The notes under the pieces: model-generated
Seen by the model: the letters and a program-made list of their open reading frames with translations, nothing else
Told to the model about the DNA's origin: nothing
Databases searched by the model: none
Assembly (NCBI RefSeq): GCF_002831645.1
Contig: NZ_CP025117.1
Location: 689,514 to 753,513, forward strand
Length of the DNA: 64,000 nucleotides
Direction of reading: 5' to 3'
Source: Olleya sp. Bg11-27
GTDB lineage: Bacteria > Bacteroidota > Bacteroidia > Flavobacteriales > Flavobacteriaceae
Shown: one piece after another, positions 16,270-28,666 of the stretch
How positions within the stretch are numbered: position 1 is the first letter of the stretch
Layout: the number at the start of each line of letters is the position of its first letter
Position numbers and translations under genes: made by a program

Positions 16270-16277
16270 TATATTTG
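16270..16277 (+). promoter_or_regulatory. TAnnTTTG promoter element with overlapping inverted repeat
   Basis: TATATTTG lies 21 bases before the ATG at 16299. An inverted repeat TTGTGGA (16275-16281) and TCCACAA (16293-16299) overlaps the -7 element and the start codon, so it could be an operator or a leader hairpin. The -7 position places transcription start after the alternative TTG at 16275, ruling that start out. Confidence 0.55.
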
Positions 16278-16298
16278 TGGACAAAGCCTTTATCCACA

Positions 16299-16982
16299 AT
16301 GAAAAAACTACAATTCATCTTATTAGTAGCACTAACTATAGGTTTTGTTACAAAAAACTTTGCACAACATGCCTCTTATGAAATTAAAAATGGGTTTGCG
16401 TTAGGTGGTGGTATCACACAATTTGATATTATCACAGATAATTTTGATACCAAAAAAGGGGCGGGCTGGATAGCTAATATGACTGCTACTGTTGATATAC
16501 CCCACAAGTGGTTTAATGTTAGTTATAGTATGCAACTATCAGAAAATACGATAAGTACGACAGGCTTTGATTTTCCATTAGCAATTACTACAGAAGATGT
16601 TGAGTATAAAATATTTACTGCTCAAGTTCAGTTTTTGTGGCATGCTAAGCCATTTGGAACATCCAACTTTACTATTGATTTTTGTCCAATGTTGCAATAT
16701 AATAGTGATTTAGAGTTAAGTGATGATCAACAAGAAGACTTTATTTTAGCCGATTTTGATACGGTGTTTGCTAAAGAAGTGAAGGATTTAACTAATTTTA
16801 ATGTTAATGGTACTATTGGCGCTACTTTGGGTATTGGTTTTTTTAAAGTAAGAGCACAATATATTTATGGATTCACTAATATTTTAGGTGCTTTAAATGA
16901 CTCCGATTTTAATCAAACTTTAGGTAGAGATTTTAAAGGACATCAAAGTATGTTTGCCTTTACAGGTATGATTACATTTTAA
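16299..16982 (+). CDS. Probable outer-membrane beta-barrel protein
   Basis: Exported protein of 227 residues with a signal peptide MKKLQFILLVALTIGFVTKN and cleavage near FAQ. The mature part is built of alternating hydrophobic/polar strands with aromatic ends (for example 'FNVSYSMQLSEN' and 'FFKVRAQYIYGFTNILG'). It ends in a beta strand with a C-terminal Phe (MITF), typical for outer-membrane barrels inserted by BAM. The length suggests 8-10 strands. No specific family is recognised. Confidence 0.65.
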   Translation: MKKLQFILLVALTIGFVTKNFAQHASYEIKNGFALGGGITQFDIITDNFDTKKGAGWIANMTATVDIPHKWFNVSYSMQLSENTISTTGFDFPLAITTEDVEYKIFTAQVQFLWHAKPFGTSNFTIDFCPMLQYNSDLELSDDQQEDFILADFDTVFAKEVKDLTNFNVNGTIGATLGIGFFKVRAQYIYGFTNILGALNDSDFNQTLGRDFKGHQSMFAFTGMITF

Positions 16983-17050: not shown

Positions 17051-17084
17051 AAAAAAAGCCATCTACATTTAGATGGCTTTTTTG
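17051..17084. terminator. Bidirectional terminator before gltX
   Basis: aaaaaagccatct (17052-17064) and agatggctttttt (17071-17083) form a 13-bp stem with a 6-base loop between convergent genes. Confidence 0.9.
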
Positions 17085-17086
17085 TT

Positions 17087-18595
17087 TTATAACGTTTCGA
17101 TAAGTTTTTCGAGACGTGTTATACTTTCATTTTTTCCAATCATAAACATGATATCAAAAACGTCAGGTCCTTGTAAGGCACCAACTAATGCTAAACGTAA
17201 AGGCATCATAACCTTTCCAAAGCCAATGTCTTTAGCGGTTATCCAACCTTTTACTTCTTTTTGAAGCGTTTCTACTTCAAAATCTGTAATGTTAGAAACT
17301 ACTGCTAATACATCAGTCATTATGGACTTAGTATCTTCTTTAAATGCCTTTTTAGAGGCTTTTTCGTCATAACTTTTTGGAGCTACAAAAAAGTAACTAC
17401 TTAAATCCCAGAAATCATTTACAAAAGAGGCACGTTCTTTAACTAAGCCTACAACTAAAGCAATGTAATTAATATCTATTGCTGTTAATTCACTACGATT
17501 TTTTTGGAATGCTTCTGCTAAATCTTCATTAGACTGCTCTTGCATATAATGGTGATTAAACCATTTAATTTTATCTGGATCAAAACGTGCTCCTGCCTTA
17601 TTAACGCGGTCTAAATCAAAAGCAGCAACTAATTGCTCTAAGGTAAACATCTCTTGTTCTGTCCCTGGATTCCATCCTAGAAAGGCTAAAAAGTTAATGA
17701 CTGCATCTGCAAAATAACCTTCCTCTTTATAACCTTTTGCAGTATCTCCAAACTCAGGATTCCATTCTAATGGAAACACTGGGAAGCCTAATTTATCACC
17801 ATCACGTTTACTTAATTTTCCTTTACCTGTTGGTTTTAAAATTAATGGTAGATGTGCAAATTCGGGTTGATCCCAACCAAAAGCCTTGTATAATTGATAG
17901 TGTAAAGCTAAGCTAGGTAACCATTCTTCTCCACGGATAACATGAGTGATTTCCATTAAATGGTCATCAACAATATTAGCTAAGTGATAGGTTGGCATAC
18001 CATCCGACTTAAATAACACTTTGTCATCTAAGACGTTAGTATCAATTTTTATATCACCACGTATAATATCTTTTAAGCGTAATGTTTCGTCTTGTGGACT
18101 TTTAAATCTAATCACAAAATCATCGCCTGCCGTTAATTTAGCACTAACCTCGTCTGTACTAAGTGATAAAGAATTGCTTAATTTTAATCGGTTATGCCAA
18201 TTGTAAATAAACGTTTTGCCTTTAGATTCATGATCTGTTCTGTGATAATCTAGCTCTTCAGACGTGTCAAAAGCGTAGTAAGCATTGCCGCTAGCTATTA
18301 ATTGCTCTGCATATTGTTTGTATAAGTCTTTACGTTCGCTTTGCCTGTAGGGTCCAAATTTTTCATTTTTACCTGGGCCTTCATCAAAAGGAATATTACA
18401 CCAATTTAGGGCATCTACTATATATTGTTCTGCACCTTCAACGTAACGGTTTTGGTCTGTATCTTCAATACGTAATACAAAAGTACCGTTATGCTTTTTT
18501 GCAAATAGATAGTTAAAAAGCGCTGTACGTACGCCTCCAATATGTAAAGGTCCAGTTGGACTTGGTGCAAAACGCACTCTGACTTGTTTTGACAT
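17087..18595 (-). CDS. gltX: Glutamyl-tRNA synthetase
   Basis: Class Ib synthetase charging tRNA-Glu, 502 residues. The HIGH-type motif is PSPTGPLHIGGVRTALFN (from residue 11) and the KMSKS-type motif is KLSKRDGDK (about residue 258). A helical anticodon-binding C-terminus follows, as in other bacterial GluRS. Because glnS is also present in the window, this GluRS is presumably discriminating. It has its own promoter (TTG, spacer, TATCTTTG) and shares a bidirectional terminator with the barrel gene. Confidence 0.96.
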   Translation of the reverse strand: MSKQVRVRFAPSPTGPLHIGGVRTALFNYLFAKKHNGTFVLRIEDTDQNRYVEGAEQYIVDALNWCNIPFDEGPGKNEKFGPYRQSERKDLYKQYAEQLIASGNAYYAFDTSEELDYHRTDHESKGKTFIYNWHNRLKLSNSLSLSTDEVSAKLTAGDDFVIRFKSPQDETLRLKDIIRGDIKIDTNVLDDKVLFKSDGMPTYHLANIVDDHLMEITHVIRGEEWLPSLALHYQLYKAFGWDQPEFAHLPLILKPTGKGKLSKRDGDKLGFPVFPLEWNPEFGDTAKGYKEEGYFADAVINFLAFLGWNPGTEQEMFTLEQLVAAFDLDRVNKAGARFDPDKIKWFNHHYMQEQSNEDLAEAFQKNRSELTAIDINYIALVVGLVKERASFVNDFWDLSSYFFVAPKSYDEKASKKAFKEDTKSIMTDVLAVVSNITDFEVETLQKEVKGWITAKDIGFGKVMMPLRLALVGALQGPDVFDIMFMIGKNESITRLEKLIETL

Positions 18596-21800: not shown

Positions 21801-22276
21801 AGCAGAATGGTGAAGGTGAAGATGGAGATCAAAATGGGACGGAAGGGTTTAGTGAAGATGTAAATGGTGAGCTGTTTAAAATTTACCAAGAACAACAGAT
21901 GTTACGTCAGGCGCTTGAACAACGTCTAGAAAAAGAAGGATTGGGAGAGAGTAGAGAAGCAAGACAATTGTTAAGAGATATGGAAGAGGTGGAGATGGAT
22001 TTGATAAATAATGGTTTTACGAATCAAACATTAAGTAAAATGAAAAATTTACAACATCAATTGTTAAAGTTAGAAAATGCGGCTTTGGAACAAGGTCAAG
22101 AACAAAAACGTGAATCTCAAACTAATTCTAAACAATTTAAGAATACGACGACTAATCAATTGGATAAAGCAAAACAATATTTTAACACCACAGAAATATT
22201 GAATAAGCAAACATTACCTTTGCAAGAATTATATAAACAAAAAGCACAACAGTACTTTAAACAGAAAAATGATTAG
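18845..22276 (+). CDS. DUF4175 giant membrane/coiled-coil protein
   Basis: Membrane protein of 1143 residues with a TTG start. Two hydrophobic segments near the N-terminus (about 25-45, 55-75) and one near 150-170 precede a beta-rich periplasmic region (about 190-480). A very long charged coiled coil (about 490-780) follows, with Met/Gln-rich sequence ('MSMSMQMQM'), a low-complexity Gly/Glu/Lys stretch (about 930-1000) and a helical C-terminus. This is the DUF4175 pattern seen in Bacteroidota. Function is unknown; the size suggests an envelope scaffold. ybeY overlaps its end by 8 bases, so the two are probably co-transcribed. Confidence 0.85.
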   Translation: MNNFNNIQSKLEQFIRKYYTNELIKGVILFFSIGLLYFLFTLLIEHFLWLNSSARTLLFWLFVAVELALFVKFIVFPLAKLFKLQKGIGYKEASTIIGNHFPEVSDKLLNVLQLKEEANTSELLLASIDQKSKALDPIPFKLAVNFKQNIKYLKYAAIPVVILIISAISGKMNWFSDSYERVVNYQTAYEAPAPFTFFVLNEDLQTTENKEFRLLVTTEGDVIPEEAQITFNNETYFLQQRETGSFEYVFEQPSQEITFTLAANGVTSKPYTLKVVEVPTLLSFNMVLNYPGYTNKRDEILKGIGNATVPQGTKVTWELKTRATNRVDLISLDTIAFVGSKMGVFSATKPIFNNFDYNISTSNKALKNYENLSYNIQVIKDQYPELTLVSKMDSLDKQSLYFKGQVSDDYGLSKLQLVYYPSGNEAEKKVMTIPVAKANFDQFIIAFPNTLVIEEGLSYDLFFQVFDNDAVSKNKSTKSEVFTYRKRTQDEEEQKQLQEQSETIQNLNKSLETFDKQQKELQELSKTQKEKSELNFNDKKKFENFLKRQKEQDQMMKQFNKKLKDNLEEFQKDKEENDAFKEDLKERLKDNEEQLKKHEKLLKELEELREKFSKEKFSKKLDNLAKKAKSQKRSLEQLVELTKRYYVTKKMEKIGDDLDKLAKEQDKLANSKTEENTKDKQDDINKKFEALQEQLKQLEKDNNDLKKPMDVPRNENNEENIKSEQQDASEDLKSKEESQDQKEKKQKQESAKKKQKSAAQKMKKMSMSMQMQMSGAAQDQLEEDIAMLRQILDNLVVFSMDQESLMNKFKGIEINHNEYATYLKKQKELRTHFEHVDDSLFAISMRQPKFSEDIYREINEVYFYIDKSLEEFSENGIYQGVSSQQYVLTGANNLADFLSDALDNLQNQSGMPMPGQGEGGMPMPDIIISQEELTKKMEKGMKKGEEGEKGKEGEKGKEGEKGSEGEDEGEGKNGKNGKDGKSGKGEQNGEGEDGDQNGTEGFSEDVNGELFKIYQEQQMLRQALEQRLEKEGLGESREARQLLRDMEEVEMDLINNGFTNQTLSKMKNLQHQLLKLENAALEQGQEQKRESQTNSKQFKNTTTNQLDKAKQYFNTTEILNKQTLPLQELYKQKAQQYFKQKND

Positions 22277-22685
22277 TTTTAATTACGAAATCGATTTTAA
22301 GGGTCTAGAAGACACTAAAATCTCTAAATGGATATCTACTATAATAAATAAGGAAAACTGCAAGGAGGACGAGATAAACTATGTGTTTTGTGACGACGAT
22401 TATTTGCATAAATTAAATGTAGAGTTTTTACAGCACGATACTTTGACCGATGTTATTAGTTTTGATTACTCAGTAGGAAAAACGCTACAGGGCGATATTT
22501 TTATTTCTATTGAGCGAGTGGAAGATAATGCCAAAGATTTTGAGGTGGAATTTGTGGACGAGTTACATCGTGTAATCATTCATGGTATTTTGCATTATTG
22601 TGGTTACAAAGATAAAACAGAAGCTGACGCTACTTTAATGCGTAGCAAAGAAAATGAGGCTCTAGAAATATTGAAAGCCATGTAG
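22269..22685 (+). CDS. ybeY: Endoribonuclease YbeY (16S rRNA maturation)
   Basis: Metal-dependent endoribonuclease for 16S rRNA 3'-end processing and ribosome quality control; 138 residues. The signature is HGILHYCGYKDK with H105 and H109 as the first two metal ligands. In E. coli-type YbeY the motif ends GYDH, giving a third His; here it reads GYKD, so D115 probably takes that place. The same form is, as far as I recall, general in Bacteroidota. 'HDTLTDVISFDY' is the conserved core strand. It overlaps DUF4175 by 8 bases. Confidence 0.92.
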   Translation: MISFNYEIDFKGLEDTKISKWISTIINKENCKEDEINYVFCDDDYLHKLNVEFLQHDTLTDVISFDYSVGKTLQGDIFISIERVEDNAKDFEVEFVDELHRVIIHGILHYCGYKDKTEADATLMRSKENEALEILKAM

Positions 22686-22733
22686 TTTGGTTTTTTGTTT
22701 TTTGGGATTCAATTTTTAAATAAAAAAGAAAAC

Positions 22734-22747
22734 GTTCCACGTGGAAC
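22734..22747. promoter_or_regulatory. parS-like palindrome 1
   Basis: GTTCCACGTGGAAC is a perfect 14-base palindrome, the same as the core of chromosomal ParB-binding parS sites (TGTTCCACGTGGAACA-type). It lies between ybeY and mnmG. Confidence 0.75.
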
Positions 22748-22824
22748 AATAATTAAAAATCATACTTGAGTAAAGGGGTGTTCAGATTTTCTGTTCAGCT
22801 TAGAGGTTGGGTAAAACAAATATT

Positions 22825-24696
22825 ATGTTTAACGAAGTTTACGATGTGATTGTAGTTGGTGCTGGTCACGCAGGAAGTGAGGCGGCAGCGTCAGCTGCTA
22901 ATATGGGAAGCAAGACTTTGCTTATTACTATGAATTTACAAAACATCGCACAGATGTCTTGTAACCCTGCGATGGGAGGAATAGCGAAAGGACAAATTGT
23001 TAGAGAGATTGATGCGCTTGGAGGTTATTCTGGAATTGTGAGTGATACTTCTGCGATTCAATTTAAGATGTTGAATAAATCTAAGGGACCTGCAATGTGG
23101 AGTCCAAGAGTGCAAAGTGATAGAATGCGTTTTGCAGAAGATTGGCGTTTGATTTTAGAACAAACAAAAAATCTTGATTTTTATCAAGAAATGGTTTCTG
23201 GGTTAATTGTTGAGAATGGAAAAGTTTGTGGGGTAACAACGTCTCTTGGTGTTAAGATTAGATCAAAATCTGTAGTACTTACAAATGGAACTTTTTTGAA
23301 TGGTCTTATTCATATAGGTGATAAAAATTTTGGTGGAGGTAGAGCAGGTGAAAGAGCGGCAACTGGAATTACTGAGCAGTTGGTTAATTTAGGTTTTGAA
23401 TCTGGTAGAATGAAAACAGGGACACCGCCAAGAGTAGATGGTCGATCTTTGGATTTCTCAAAAATGGTAGAACAACCTGGTGATGTTAATCCGGAAAAGT
23501 TTTCGTTTTTGGATACTACAAAACCATTAACGCATCAGCGTTCTTGTCACATGTCATATACAAGTGAAAAGGTTCATGATTTACTTCGTGAGGGATTTGA
23601 TCGCTCACCAATGTTTAATGGTAGAATTAAAAGTTTAGGTCCAAGATATTGTCCTTCTATTGAAGATAAGATAAATCGTTTTGCGGATAAGAACAGACAT
23701 CAATTATTCGTTGAACCAGAAGGATGGAATACTGTAGAATATTATATAAATGGTTTTTCTACATCGCTCCCAGAAGATGTTCAATTTAAAGCATTACGTT
23801 CTGTGGTTGGATTTGAAAATGTGAAATTTTTCAGACCAGGTTATGCAATCGAATATGATTATTTTCCACCGACGCAATTAAAACATACTTTAGAAACTAA
23901 GTTGATTGACGGCTTGTTTTTTGCAGGTCAAATTAATGGAACTACTGGATATGAAGAGGCGGCTTCTCAAGGTTTAATGGCGGGTATTAATGCGGCCTTG
24001 AAAGTTCAGGAACGCGATCCTTTTATTCTTAAAAGAGATGAAGCATATATCGGAGTATTGGTTGATGATTTAATTACGAAGGGAACAGAAGAGCCGTATC
24101 GTATGTTTACGTCGAGAGCAGAATACAGAACATTATTGCGCCAGGATAATGCCGATATTAGATTAACGCCAAAAGGTTTTGATTTAGGTTTGGCGTCAGA
24201 AAAACGGCTACGTCGCATGGAGGTGAAGCATAATGCCGCAGAGAAATTTGTTCAGTTTTTTAGAGATACTAGTGTGACTCCAGAGGAGATTAATCCCGCT
24301 TTGGAAGCTAAAGGTTCGGCTGCGATTAGACAACAAGATAAGATGTTTAAAATGTTTGCAAGACCTAATGTGACGATAGAGGATATGAAGGAGGTGTCTT
24401 CTGTTTCGAGGTATATTGAAGATCATAATCTGGATAATGAGATCATTGAGCAAACAGAAATTCAGGTTAAGTATTCGGGGTATATTGCTAAGGAAAAGAG
24501 TAATGCGGATAAGTTAACACGTCTAGAAAATATTAAGATACCTGAAGGTTTTGATTACTCTAAATTGCAATCTATGAGTTTTGAAGCAAGGGAAAAGCTG
24601 GGTAAAATACAACCGGTAACTATATCTCAGGCCTCAAGAATTAGCGGAGTTTCACCTTCTGATATTTCCGTTTTATTAGTGTATATGGGAAGATAG
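22825..24696 (+). CDS. mnmG: tRNA uridine 5-carboxymethylaminomethyl modification enzyme MnmG
   Basis: FAD-dependent enzyme (also called GidA) that, with MnmE, modifies U34 of certain tRNAs; cytosolic. The ATG at 22825 gives the usual family start MFNEVYDVIVVGAGHAGSEA with the FAD-binding GAGHAG at about residues 12-17, so the TTG at 22807 is unlikely. Other family motifs are 'MSCNPAMGGIAKGQIVREID', 'RGPAMWSPR' in the form KGPAMWSPR, 'YCPSIEDKI' and 'GQINGTTGYEEAASQGL'. The length of 623 residues is normal. It is flanked by parS-like palindromes on both sides; gidA often lies near the replication origin in other phyla. Confidence 0.97.
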   Translation: MFNEVYDVIVVGAGHAGSEAAASAANMGSKTLLITMNLQNIAQMSCNPAMGGIAKGQIVREIDALGGYSGIVSDTSAIQFKMLNKSKGPAMWSPRVQSDRMRFAEDWRLILEQTKNLDFYQEMVSGLIVENGKVCGVTTSLGVKIRSKSVVLTNGTFLNGLIHIGDKNFGGGRAGERAATGITEQLVNLGFESGRMKTGTPPRVDGRSLDFSKMVEQPGDVNPEKFSFLDTTKPLTHQRSCHMSYTSEKVHDLLREGFDRSPMFNGRIKSLGPRYCPSIEDKINRFADKNRHQLFVEPEGWNTVEYYINGFSTSLPEDVQFKALRSVVGFENVKFFRPGYAIEYDYFPPTQLKHTLETKLIDGLFFAGQINGTTGYEEAASQGLMAGINAALKVQERDPFILKRDEAYIGVLVDDLITKGTEEPYRMFTSRAEYRTLLRQDNADIRLTPKGFDLGLASEKRLRRMEVKHNAAEKFVQFFRDTSVTPEEINPALEAKGSAAIRQQDKMFKMFARPNVTIEDMKEVSSVSRYIEDHNLDNEIIEQTEIQVKYSGYIAKEKSNADKLTRLENIKIPEGFDYSKLQSMSFEAREKLGKIQPVTISQASRISGVSPSDISVLLVYMGR

Positions 24697-24707
24697 ATTT
24701 AAGTTTT

Positions 24708-24739
24708 AAAGGGAACGTTCCACGTGGAACGTTCCCTTT
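24708..24739. terminator. mnmG terminator made of a 32-base perfect palindrome
   Basis: Every base from 24708 to 24739 pairs with its mirror position: AAAGGGAACGTTCCAC on one side, GTGGAACGTTCCCTTT on the other. The 3' side continues in T's, so the RNA could form a terminator. The parS-like core lies exactly in the centre. Confidence 0.7.
24717..24730. promoter_or_regulatory. parS-like palindrome 2
   Basis: GTTCCACGTGGAAC, identical to site 1, in the centre of the larger palindrome after mnmG. Confidence 0.75.
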
Positions 24740-25858
24740 TATTTTGTCTATTGTTTAGAAATGGTGTTGAATGTCGGGTTTGTATTTAGTGAGTATTGAA
24801 AGTTTAGTTTGTTTAATTAGGTCGTTTGTTTTGTCTATTTGGACTTTTTATTGTTCTTTTTTTTAAGGCTTATTTAGCTTTTTATTGGTATGACTTCTTT
24901 TCTTTTTATGAGTGTTATTTCTTTTTGTAGGCGTTTAAATATTCTTTTTTTAAAGTTTATGATGAAGGATTAAAATGAGATTTGGAACGTTGTTTAGGTC
25001 TTTTTTTTAGTGTAATTATATCTAATTTACTTTATTTTGATGTCGTTTGTATAAGCCTTTTGTTTTGTTTTTAAGAGTTTTTTTTATTTCATCGAGATGG
25101 AATATATGGTTTTTTTGAAGCTGTTTTCGATTGAGTTTGTCTGTTTTTTGTTGGTTTTTTTCGTTTATGTTTTTAAGAAAAGTGTCTTAATAGAGGTTAG
25201 AATATTTAAATTGCTATGTTTTATTTACCTTATAATGGTCAATTAATTACCTTGATTTAGTATTTTTTGAACTAGAATAGCCGTAGTTTTTTAGTGTTTT
25301 GTGTTCTTTTTTTAAGTGTTTATAGTCTGTTATTATGCTTTTATTTTATCTAAAATGGTTTAATAGAGTAGGAGGAAGTCGATATTTTGAGGTTTATTTT
25401 GGTCGTTTATTTTGATTTTTATCTCGTATTACAGCAAATTATAAGGATGAATTATTACTTTTTTTACGTTTATACGGTAGGTATAGTGATGCGGTTTTCG
25501 GTTAAATCGGCGCTGTAAATTGTTTTTATAAAGGCTATTTGTTCCTTTTTGTTGAGTATATTTTGATTGTTGTGTCGTTAATTGTGTTGCTTGTAATTTA
25601 AAATAACGTTGTGTATTTGCTAGTGTCGTGTGTTCTTGGGGCAATATTTTTGTGTTGTTTGAGGTTGAAAAGGGGTGAATTAGGCGCTTTATTGGTTTAG
25701 AAATAGGGTTAAATAATGACTTGTTTAGTATTCTAAATTGGTATAATCGTCTTGTTTTAGTTATGCTTTAACGCCTAGTATAGATATTTTTTTATTGATT
25801 TCAGCGGTGGTTGACTTGAATTGATGGGTATTAGTGTTTCTTAATTTATGGATTTTAG

Positions 25859-25874
25859 TGTTCCTCTTGGAACA
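25859..25874. promoter_or_regulatory. parS-like site 3 (variant)
   Basis: TGTTCCTCTTGGAACA. The outer arms TGTTCC/GGAACA are intact, and the centre CACGTG is changed to TCTTGG-type sequence. It is the most diverged copy of the series and may bind weakly or not at all. Confidence 0.5.
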
Positions 25875-26087
25875 TTTTGGCTCTGTTTGTAGTTGTAAAG
25901 TGAATATATTATGATTTATTAGCCCTTAAAAGTCCTAGAACATGTGCTGTTTTGTAGTATTAAATGCTTGTGGTAAGTGTATTTTTTGGTTTTATTTATT
26001 CAGTTTTTATATGTTTTTTCTGTTGATTAGAGTGTAAATAGTTTAGTATAACATGGGATATAACGCTGGTTATTCTTCCTGTTTTAG

Positions 26088-26103
26088 TGTTCCTCGTGGA
26101 ACA
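26088..26103. promoter_or_regulatory. parS-like site 4 (variant)
   Basis: TGTTCCTCGTGGAACA differs from the perfect palindrome at one central base (A to T). It marks the start of the first long repeat. Confidence 0.65.
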
Positions 26104-26531
26104 ATTTGCTTTTATTTAATGTGTAAAGGAGTGGTAAGAACGTTTTTTTAGAGTTTTTTTCTGCTTATAGAAGGCTTGTTTAACTGTTTAAAGTTCTTTA
26201 AAGAGTGTGTTTATCGTGTTATTTGTGTCTTTATTTAGATGCTTTTTTAGTATTAGAGTATAAATACAGAGGTTTATTATAAATTAAAAGTTAAGATTAT
26301 TGGCGTATTGGGCTCTTTTATCATGGGGTAATCGTTCACTAAGTAGTTTTGTAATGACATATTTAAAGGGTTTAGTTAGCCGTAAGTCGTCTTATAAACG
26401 TCTTTTTTGATTGGTTTATATGACGGAAGTCTTAAGTTTAAATTCAAATTAAGATGTTTTTTTTAGGGTAATGTATACTAATAGTAGGTGGTTGTATGTG
26501 AAAAGAGAGTTGTTTATTTGTGGTTTTTTTG
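26088..26531 (+). repeat. Long tandem repeat unit A (444 bp)
   Basis: It begins with parS-like site 4 and is followed directly by unit B. Shared exact words keep a constant offset of 444: ttatttaatgtgtaaag (26112-26128 and 26556-26572), agtagttttgtaa (26342-26354 and 26786-26798) and cttataaacgtcttttttg (26391-26409 and 26835-26853). The units are imperfect copies with many substitutions between these blocks. Confidence 0.8.
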
Positions 26532-26547
26532 TGTTCCTCGTGGAACA
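26532..26547. promoter_or_regulatory. parS-like site 5 (variant)
   Basis: TGTTCCTCGTGGAACA, identical to site 4, 444 bases downstream of it, at the head of repeat unit B. Confidence 0.65.
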
Positions 26548-26970
26548 ATGGTGTGTTATTTAATGTGTAAAGAGTGGGTAAAAAGCTTTTTTGAGATTAT
26601 TTTTGGCTTCCAGAAGGTTTTTTTAGCTGTTTGAAGTTTTATAAAGAATGTGTTTATCTACTGGTTTGTGTCTTTATGTAGTTGCTTTTTTTAGTATTAT
26701 AGGGTAAATACAGAGGTGTATAATTAGTTAAAAGCAAAGCGTGTTGCTGGATAGCGCGCTGTTATGATAGGGTAATCGTGCACTTAGTAGTTTTGTAAAG
26801 ACATATTTAAAGGTTTTATTGAGGTGTAAGTAGTCTTATAAACGTCTTTTTTGTTAGTTTACATGGTATAAATCTTTAGTTTAAATTGAAATTAAGATGT
26901 TTTTTAGGTTAGTTAATACTATTAATAAGTGGGTGCATGTGAAAATAGAGTTGTTTATTTGGGGTTCTAA
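26532..26970 (+). repeat. Long tandem repeat unit B (439 bp)
   Basis: Imperfect copy of unit A, lying directly after it and 5 bases shorter. Besides the blocks given for unit A, both share 'gtaaatacagaggt'-like and 'aaattaagatgttttt' words. Both end in a 'gagttgtttatttg' word just before the next parS-like site. Confidence 0.8.
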
Positions 26971-26986
26971 TGTTCCTCGTGGAACA
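26971..26986. promoter_or_regulatory. parS-like site 6 (variant)
   Basis: TGTTCCTCGTGGAACA, identical to sites 4 and 5, closing the tandem array 48 bases before the methyltransferase start. Confidence 0.65.
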
Positions 26987-27033
26987 ATGAGTCGTTATTA
27001 AAATAAAAAAAAGTATAAATAAGCTACCTTTTT

Positions 27034-27924
27034 TTGGGTAAGCTATCTAAAATAGTATTGATTGTGGTAAGTGAAAATGGTAAAAAAGTGTTGTTTAAAG
27101 TAAAGGATCACTCTGTTTCTGGTGAAGAATTTCATTTGTTAGAACATAAAAAGTATGGCTATTTGAAGACAATCCCTAAACCGCCATTGGGTAAATTAGG
27201 TGAATATTATCAAACAGAAGACTATATTTCTCATACAGATTCTAGAAGAAACTTGTTTGAAATGGTGTATCATGCTATCCGAAAGGTGTCTTTAAAGCGT
27301 AAACTAAACCTGATTAATTCGTTCGAATTAGAGGGCAAAACGCTATTAGATTTTGGATCTGGGACTGGTGATTTCCTTAAAACTGTTCAAAGTAATGGTT
27401 GGAATGTTTCGGGAATTGAACCAAATGAGGCGGCTAGAGGTATAGCGAATAGTAAAACTAATGGTTCTGTTTTTGAATCAAAGCAACTAAATACGTTTGA
27501 AAAAAAGAGTTTTGATGTGATTACCTTGTGGCATGTACTAGAACATGTTCCAGATTTAGAAGAAAAGATAGCTGTTCTTAAGTCGTTACTTAAGCCAAAT
27601 GGGGTGTTATTAATTGCTGTTCCTAACTATAAAAGTTACGACGCAGAGCATTATAAACAGTATTGGGCAGCGTATGATGTACCAAGACATTTATGGCATT
27701 TTGATCAAAAATCAATTTCAAATCTGTTTTATAGTATTAGTATGTCGGTTAAAAAAACGATACCTATGGTTTTTGATTCGTATTATGTGAGTCTTTTATC
27801 TGAAAAGTATAAATCGGGAGGCCTGACTATTTTTAGAGCATTTAGGATTGGATTTGTCTCAAATCGTAAAGCAAAGGCTTCAGGAGAGTATTCTTCATTG
27901 ATTTATGTGCTAAAAAATAGCTAA
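27034..27924 (+). CDS. Class I SAM-dependent methyltransferase
   Basis: A soluble protein of up to 296 residues. The SAM-binding motif I is LLDFGSGTGDFL (about residues 108-119), followed by the acidic 'GIEPNEAA' and 'FDVITLWHVLEHVPD' typical of Methyltransf_11/23-like enzymes. The 'SGEEFHLLEH...YYQTEDYISHTDSRRNLFEMVYHA' N-terminus is seen in flavobacterial homologues next to mnmG. No cysteine is present, so there is no N-terminal zinc ribbon. The start is uncertain: no in-frame ATG occurs before residue 77. TTG 27034, GTG 27064 and GTG 27088 are all possible, and the last would start MLFKVKDHSVSGEE. The substrate is unknown. Confidence 0.8.
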   Translation: MGKLSKIVLIVVSENGKKVLFKVKDHSVSGEEFHLLEHKKYGYLKTIPKPPLGKLGEYYQTEDYISHTDSRRNLFEMVYHAIRKVSLKRKLNLINSFELEGKTLLDFGSGTGDFLKTVQSNGWNVSGIEPNEAARGIANSKTNGSVFESKQLNTFEKKSFDVITLWHVLEHVPDLEEKIAVLKSLLKPNGVLLIAVPNYKSYDAEHYKQYWAAYDVPRHLWHFDQKSISNLFYSISMSVKKTIPMVFDSYYVSLLSEKYKSGGLTIFRAFRIGFVSNRKAKASGEYSSLIYVLKNS

Positions 27925-28122
27925 AAATAGATTTAAGAAATGTAGTTAAATGATAAGTCTGTATAATGTGTAATCATATTAAGTTTTTCTAAAACACGCT
28001 TAAAAGGCTTTATTTGATGTCGTTTTTGATAGGGTTTGCTTATAATCTGTATAATTTGCCATAAGAATTACTTATTTATCATAAAATCTTTAAAAAAGAT
28101 TAATTCAGTTTAGTTAATTATT

Positions 28123-28130
28123 TACATTTG
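28123..28130 (+). promoter_or_regulatory. TAnnTTTG element for the OmpH-like gene
   Basis: TACATTTG lies 23 bases before the ATG at 28154, with an A-rich leader between. No TTG was found at the -33 position. Confidence 0.5.
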
Positions 28131-28153
28131 CTCAAATTCATAAAAAATAAAAA

Positions 28154-28666
28154 ATGAAAAAAATATTTGGTTTACTATTAGTTGTGTCTGTTTTTACTTC
28201 TTGTCAAAAACAAAAAATTGCTTTTATTGATAATGGAGAAGTGATAAACAAGATTCAAGAAAAATTAGATTTAGAAGAGAGTTACAAAAAGACTCTAGAT
28301 AAGTTTAATGCTAGAAGAGATAGTTTAGGAAAAGATTTTCAAATGGAAGCGCAAAAATTTCAAATGGAAGCACAAAGTATGCCAGCTCAAAAAGCTCAAG
28401 CTAAGTATGACGAGTTAGGTCAAAAGCAACAAATGTTGCAACAAAGACTTCAGGCGGAGCAACAGCAAATTTCAGAACCTTTTCAAAAAGATATGGATTC
28501 TTTAATTTCTAAGGTAAAAACGTATGTAAACGACTATGGTAAAAACAATGGTTATGATTATATATTAGGTACAAGTGACGCTAGTCCTTCTGTTTTATTT
28601 GGTAAGAAAGAGAATGATATTTCTACTACTATAATTGAAGGTTTAAATGCTTCTTATAAGAAATAG
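28154..28666 (+). CDS. OmpH/Skp family lipoprotein
   Basis: Periplasmic protein of 170 residues. The lipoprotein signal peptide ends in TSC with the lipidated Cys at position 17 (MKKIFGLLLVVSVFTSC). The family start 'KIAFIDNGEVINKIQEK' is followed by a long Gln/Lys/Glu-rich coiled-coil region (about 45-125) and a compact C-terminal 'NGYDYILGTSDASPSVLFG' segment. It fits the Skp/OmpH chaperone family, which holds unfolded outer-membrane proteins in the periplasm. A lipidated form is common in Bacteroidota. A strong terminator follows. Confidence 0.9.
   Translation: MKKIFGLLLVVSVFTSCQKQKIAFIDNGEVINKIQEKLDLEESYKKTLDKFNARRDSLGKDFQMEAQKFQMEAQSMPAQKAQAKYDELGQKQQMLQQRLQAEQQQISEPFQKDMDSLISKVKTYVNDYGKNNGYDYILGTSDASPSVLFGKKENDISTTIIEGLNASYKK

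Follow-up and report, generated by a model that had tools for sequence, protein, structure and literature searches.

A parS-like core downstream of mnmG in Olleya sp. Bg11-27 is probably shared with the stem of an intrinsic terminator

Results

Genes and features at the mnmG locus

The window, that is, the whole stretch of 64,000 nucleotides analyzed here, corresponds to G000:C1:689514-753513, where G000 is the genome of Olleya sp. Bg11-27 itself. Feature coordinates are those of the window, and locations in kb or Mb refer to the genome. The following features surround mnmG.

22269 to 22685, + strand: ybeY
22734 to 22747, no strand: second exact parS-like core, the upstream 'U' site, located between ybeY and mnmG and lacking hairpin arms; used as an internal control
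22807 to 24696, + strand: mnmG (gidA; Pfam GIDA, E 2.3e-162)
24708 to 24739, + strand: 32-base perfect palindrome, a terminator-like RNA hairpin of 14 pairs with the loop ACGU
24708 to 24716, + strand: left outer arm, AAAGGGAAC
24717 to 24730, no strand: 14-base parS-like core GTTCCACGTGGAAC, the downstream 'D' site, in the apical part of the hairpin
24731 to 24739, + strand: right outer arm, GTTCCCTTT
24737 to 24746, + strand: T-rich tail TTTTATTTTG, overlapping the end of the right arm
27034 to 27924, + strand: SAM-dependent methyltransferase gene, the next gene downstream, on the same strand as mnmG

The listed start of mnmG is the TTG at 22807, and the gene may in truth begin at the in-frame ATG at 22825. 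In six of the nine genus members, the distance from mnmG to the methyltransferase gene, counted to the matched region and including small unmatched starts, is at most about 110 nt; it is about 0.8 kb in G004 and 2.3 kb in the window genome and its sister G005. In a further genus member, G006 (75% complete), no mnmG and no core were found, and this genome is not counted with the nine.

A perfect palindrome after mnmG forms a terminator-like hairpin

An earlier reading of the sequence alone had described all 32 bases as one perfect palindrome with a 14-base parS-like core at its center and a T tract outside. The inverted-repeat check agrees in each respect: the arms (24708-24723 and 24724-24739) are 16 nt each, 100% complementary and separated by a 0-nt spacer; GTTCCACGTGGAAC lies at 24717-24730; and the tail TTTTATTTTG is present, broken by one A when counted from the last Ts of the arm. 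The palindrome lies 11 nt and the core 20 nt from the mnmG stop codon.

As RNA, the stem consists of 14 pairs, including 7 G-C pairs, and closes on a 4-nt loop. The folding energy of the 71-nt segment 24690-24760 is -28.9 kcal/mol, compared with a shuffled mean of -10.6 (z -6.3; reached in 0 of 200 shuffles). The site at 24708-24739 is also among the terminator-like sites of a consensus scan, which records 14 pairs and a T-rich tail for it; the same scan found 12 such sites in 15 kb against 6.5 expected, so the listing alone is little proof. Arms of this length are rare by chance, however: when the left and right flanks of the 141 downstream sites from outside the genus were swapped, 5 of 19,740 combinations gave at least 9 perfect outer pairs. 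Flank swapping was used as the main control rather than simple shuffles because the latter destroy the parS core. The features of an intrinsic terminator found here are a stable stem with G-C pairs, a T tract directly 3' of it, and compensatory changes in relatives, which are described below. A known Rfam RNA was rejected as the identity of the hairpin, as no Rfam match at E 0.1 or better was obtained over 22200-28200.

Elsewhere in the window, a symmetric terminator-like hairpin at 17052-17083 was called on both strands between the convergent ORFs 16275-16982 (+) and 17087-18595 (-), and is a candidate two-way terminator.

The cores flanking mnmG, the ParB gene and the skew-derived origin

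The 14-base palindromic core GTTNCACGTGNAAC is exact at both 24717-24730 and 22734-22747. The 14-mer GTTCCACGTGGAAC has only 2 exact copies in the 4.31 Mb single-contig genome, one on either side of mnmG. Three more copies with one mismatch all lie in the gap after mnmG, and the 2 exact and 3 one-mismatch copies fall within 4.3 kb. At the 24708-24739 site, C...G stands in place of the outermost T...A of the 16-base parS consensus. Compared with TGTTTCACGTGAAACA, the D site has 2 mismatches if positions 5 and 12 are left free and 4 otherwise; the parS search described in the excerpt of PMC10197239 used TGTTTCACGTGAAACA and tolerated 2 mismatches. A C at position -1 was also found at 15 of the 141 other downstream sites and 18 of the 174 other upstream sites. 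We call the core at 24717-24730 parS-like by its letters, since the label reflects sequence and not ParB binding.

A single ParB_N protein is encoded in the genome; its gene, at 3.82 Mb, immediately follows a ParA-like ORF. The protein matches solved ParB structures (E 3.2e-54) and exceeds the cut-off of the general ParB model TIGR00180 (NCBIfam); its lowest NCBIfam E-value is to a nucleoid-occlusion model, but that match is below the model's cut-off. The ParA-like protein has NCBIfam matches only below the cut-offs of the models. There is one DnaA, at 2.29 Mb.

In 20 sampled places and the window, the GC skew is negative up to 652 kb and positive from 690 kb. Within the stretch from 640 to 753 kb, the cumulative skew reaches its minimum near 676 kb; its course between about 657 and 690 kb is unclear. 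As judged from this minimum, the pair of cores flanking mnmG lies some 36-38 kb from the skew-derived origin. An origin directly at the palindrome was rejected, as the skew change lies upstream of it and dnaA is distant. In gut bacteria, according to the excerpt of PMC10197239, most detected parS sites were clustered and the origin did not always coincide with dnaA. The skew-derived origin region here, G000:C1:657000-690000, lies upstream of the window, far from dnaA and the ParB gene, and a loose cluster of four one-mismatch DnaA boxes was observed at 688.6-689.2 kb.

The core and mnmG are paired across relatives

The sample of mnmG loci with flanks combined 93 stretches from relatives, 80 loci that were the best of at least 589, and the window, giving 174 loci, of which 171 remained after 3 duplicates were dropped. 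The sample is mostly Flavobacteriales, and a few loci carry other labels. Presence was counted in 163 loci (8 of the 171 had an incomplete mnmG or flanks), the 150 nt after mnmG were scanned for hairpins in 168 loci (3 of the 171 excluded), and flank statistics used 183 upstream sites, 1 of 184 having been excluded for its position at a locus end.

The core GTTNCACGTGNAAC is present in 87 of 99 genomes, the window genome included, mostly in two copies, which among the matches listed are mostly 1.9-2.4 kb apart. In the 163 complete loci, the U site was found in 143, the D site in 142, both in 131 and neither in 9. The downstream core most often starts between -1 and 21 nt from the mnmG stop codon. 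In G073, G082, G084 and G089, the G of the mnmG stop TAG is itself the first base of the core.

The link between parS and mnmG has exceptions, since G032, from the same family, carries three cores within 1.7 kb at G032:C1:997144-998780, about 280 kb from its mnmG at 1277 kb. Other arrangements were also observed. In L201 (Flavobacterium sp. MC2016-06), six parS-like cores lie within about 230 bases upstream of mnmG, about 2.8-3.1 kb before its stop codon, and one of the six has 12 outer pairs and a T tract. Three members of one genus, G067, G080 and G091, have two upstream cores and none downstream in the stretch examined; the nearer upstream core lies inside a terminator-like hairpin, most clearly in G091.

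These distributions bear on the possibility that the resemblance to parS is a coincidence and the hairpin an ordinary terminator. Being palindromes, terminators might occasionally match GTTCCACGTGGAAC, but the core occurs at this place after mnmG in many genera without terminator arms, and the only two exact copies in the genome both lie beside mnmG. With so few copies, and with the same place kept across genera, a chance resemblance was rejected as extremely improbable.

Within the genus, the core is fixed and the arms change together

A terminator-like hairpin passes through the downstream core in all nine genus genomes with mnmG, and a T-rich stretch directly adjoins the stem in each of them, with longer T runs in several congeners than in the window genome. 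Seven of the nine have at least 9 perfect outer pairs; in the sisters G007 and G008, the arms are imperfect, with only 9 uninterrupted pairs, and a bulge is needed for more. The 14-base core is unchanged in all nine, whereas the surrounding arms turn over: they read AAAGGG/CCCTTT in G000 and G005, AACAG/CTGTT in G001, AAGCG/CGCTT in G003, and AAGGGCT/AGCCCTT in G004. The outer six arm bases covary between left and right across the genus, and the inner AAC is nearly fixed (8 of 9).

At outer positions 4-9, 48 of 54 cells pair when each genome keeps its own arms, compared with a permuted mean of 28.5, and none of 20,000 permutations reached this value. On the alignment, two-sided changes are seen in 15 cells, a count reached in 0 of 500 shuffles and no higher than 8 in slid controls; the covariation score is 0.321 against 0.105 (0 of 500 shuffles). 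Two of the five measures are weaker. The number of pairs with a two-sided change is 5, which 18 of 500 shuffles equalled or exceeded, and the number of further pair types is 12, for which the figure is 21 of 500. When arms were swapped within the genus, 2 of 72 combinations gave 9 perfect pairs; G000 and G005 share their arms. The nine sequences are related, so these figures reflect few independent events.

The upstream parS of the same nine genomes served as the internal control. There, a mean of 2.89 of 9 outer positions pair, compared with 2.88 after swapping. Since the upstream site shows no such pairing, the arms appear to serve the hairpin after the gene and not ParB loading, and the arms were rejected as a part of ParB recognition because the upstream sites lack complementary arms. 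The compensatory outer-arm changes in the genus support, by comparison, that the hairpin has been selected as a hairpin.

The same comparison weighs on the alternative that the long palindrome is maintained for its role as DNA, where it would be a ParB site of higher affinity or one that forms a cruciform, with the RNA hairpin incidental. A palindrome without a spacer could extrude as a cruciform, and the AACGTTCC...GGAACGTT part hardly varies within the genus. Against this, the upstream parS of the same genomes is without complementary arms, most of each arm lies outside the 16-bp site, the arm letters vary freely provided that pairing holds, and the T tract sits on the gene-downstream side. 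We consider this alternative very unlikely.

Hairpins on parS outside the genus

The sequence-only reading had named conservation of the outer arms in relatives as a check, and retention of the core alone as an outcome that would speak against dual use. The answer is split. Within the genus, all nine keep a hairpin; beyond it, fewer than 5 perfect outer pairs are present at 129 of the 141 downstream sites, so the core can do without the arms. The palindrome of other genera mostly stops at or just past the core.

The remaining 12 of these 141 sites, with at least 5 perfect outer pairs, compare with 0.9% from swapped flanks, or about 1.3 sites. At 4 of the 141 (G047, G025, L197 and L253), the downstream stem has at least 12 pairs and a T tract, compared with 0.13 expected from swapped flanks; for at least 9 pairs and a T tract, the figures are 8 and 1.2. 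L197 and L253 are not claimed as terminators because their T tracts are poor to the eye. The excess is weaker at upstream sites, G091 included: 2 of 174 have at least 12 pairs (0.25 expected) and 6 have at least 9 (2.3 expected).

In a tree of 167 MnmG proteins, the nine genus genomes form one clade with a support of 1.0. The single nearest neighbor of each of G047, G025, L197 and L253 lies outside the hand list of hairpin loci, and for this reason hairpins on parS probably arose several times.

By the criteria used here, 119 of 168 loci have no terminator-like hairpin in the 150 nt after mnmG, so termination there is handled otherwise or transcription continues; simple shuffles predict 3.6 loci with any such hairpin. 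This frequent absence would fit the view that the hairpin of Olleya is mainly a stabilizer of the mRNA 3' end or a processing barrier, with the real termination being Rho-dependent or located further downstream. Terminators and stabilizing 3' hairpins look alike, and the T tract here is interrupted. We nevertheless regard this explanation as unlikely, given that a T-rich stretch lies directly at the stem in nine of nine genus members and that the next + strand terminator-like site in the scan is only at 26088.

The 2.3-kb gap contains variant sites

The region between the hairpin and the methyltransferase gene has the following features.

24740 to 27033: gap without ORFs of 80 aa or more, holding four variant sites; 2.3 kb, 47% T on the + strand, GC skew +0.47
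25859 to 25874, + strand: TGTTCCTCTTGGAACA, a one-mismatch copy of the gap motif, which is intact in the sister G005
26088 to 26103, + strand: parS-like variant TGTTCCTCGTGGAACA
26532 to 26547, + strand: parS-like variant TGTTCCTCGTGGAACA
26971 to 26986, + strand: parS-like variant TGTTCCTCGTGGAACA

The four motifs share a single orientation and are spaced by 229, 444 and 439 bases; the gap contains a 444-base tandem repeat with 80% matches. Between the window genome and G005, the gap is 89.4% identical, and the four motifs differ at 1 of 64 positions. The motifs are thus better conserved than the gap (binomial P 0.007, with positions treated as independent), although one unchanged copy would mean little because 24% of all 16-base windows in the gap show no difference. 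The exact 14-base gap variant is absent in 96 of 99 genomes and present only in the two sisters and in G064. In the latter, which belongs to another family, it lies 1 nt after mnmG, in the usual place of the downstream parS. The gap variants may be weak or special ParB sites.

The presence of four such variants in the window species and its sister, together with the loss of the outermost consensus bases at the downstream site, would be expected if the terminator is real and the downstream parS is vestigial for segregation, its role having moved to the upstream site and the gap variants. This is quite unlikely, as the 14-base core is intact in nine of nine genus members despite the turnover of the arms.

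Discussion

In summary, we consider it likely that a chromosomal parS, one of a conserved pair flanking mnmG near the skew-derived origin, has been exapted in this genus to form the apical stem of the intrinsic mnmG terminator. The sequence-only reading had proposed that one DNA segment both ends mnmG transcription and loads ParB. Comparison upholds the coincidence of a parS-like core and a selected hairpin, on the basis of the conserved place by mnmG, the ParB gene, the compensatory arms and the T-rich tails in nine of nine members, and dual use of the same DNA is in this sense well supported; as for the activities themselves, we infer that ParB binds and loads at the core and that transcription actually terminates at the hairpin.

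ParB is expected to load at parS and then to slide away as a clamp. At the DNA level, the core would be bound by ParB, which would load as a clamp and then slide off. At the RNA level, the core and the outer arms would form the 14-pair hairpin, and RNA polymerase would be released immediately after parS, which would keep mnmG apart from the methyltransferase gene that follows in the same direction. A terminator could arise easily at such a site. parS would offer a ready palindrome with three G-C pairs in a five-pair stem, a few bases past the stop codon, in DNA with a G+C content of about one third. Given this palindrome, its G-C pairs, its place near the stop codon and the A+T-rich genome, a few complementary bases outside parS and a T tract would suffice.

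The sequence-only reading had also suggested that transcription and ParB binding could interfere with each other; nothing found in this analysis supports such interference. The two uses could meet during transcription. RNA polymerase would have to cross the whole core before the hairpin forms, and brief collisions between ParB and RNA polymerase are conceivable. From the geometry of terminators, the footprint of the paused polymerase would cover the right part of the site. According to the excerpt of PMC10681803, ParB-DNA clusters were no roadblock to RNA polymerase in vitro, and about 20% lower velocity with more long pauses was seen only at 200 nM ParB. For parS of plasmid F, the excerpt of PMC6238139 reports that rifampicin left the surrounding ParB binding unchanged, and adds that promoter-bound or stalled polymerase might hinder ParB binding. 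Taken together, these reports on other ParB proteins point to mild effects of interference at most. Since the reported effects are mild, the two uses are presumably simply compatible and not mutually regulating. A regulated switch, in which ParB on the core, or clamps loading there, would slow RNA polymerase before the hairpin or at the T tract and alter the share of transcripts that end, coupling expression of mnmG or the methyltransferase gene to the state of the partition complex, is accordingly given a very slight probability.

The locus offers one stretch of DNA on which two selections can be separated by comparison, a fixed core, presumed to reflect protein binding, and changing complementary arms that reflect RNA folding. 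It illustrates that terminators can be built on existing protein-binding palindromes. A second site 2 kb away carries the core but no arms, so the locus would also allow a clean study of whether ParB loading is affected when RNA polymerase terminates at a centromere. The two parS sites beside mnmG further point to a likely segregation center in this bacterial group; one search of the open-licence literature found no paper on parS sites and ParB in Flavobacterium.

Among known systems, the chromosomal parS sites of ParABS share with this locus the 14-base GTTNCACGTGNAAC core, the clustering near a skew-derived origin and the single ParB gene. The Olleya core differs from them in being embedded in a terminator-like hairpin with covarying arms and in the change of the outermost T...A to C...G. 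Chromosomal parS sites were reportedly surveyed by Livny et al. in 2007.

In the stability module of plasmid RA3, as described in the excerpt of PMC7414963, a terminator after orf11 is followed by parS. A demonstrated Rho-independent terminator thus lies close to a partition site there too, but the excerpt describes the terminator and parS as separate elements and not as one palindrome, and the system is the KorB system of a plasmid. In P. aeruginosa, parS3 and parS4 lie upstream of genes whose expression is repressed by ParB binding (excerpt of PMC7022226); these are likewise intergenic parS sites that bear on the expression of a neighboring gene, but they act upstream of genes through repression and not at a terminator. 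A parS inside a terminator was not described in the matches listed from the open-licence literature, as far as their excerpts go, which is not proof of absence.

With intrinsic (Rho-independent) terminators, the Olleya hairpin shares a G-C stem soon after the stop codon, a T-rich tail and compensatory changes between species. It differs from them in that the apical half of its stem is apparently held fixed by a second constraint, acting at the DNA level.
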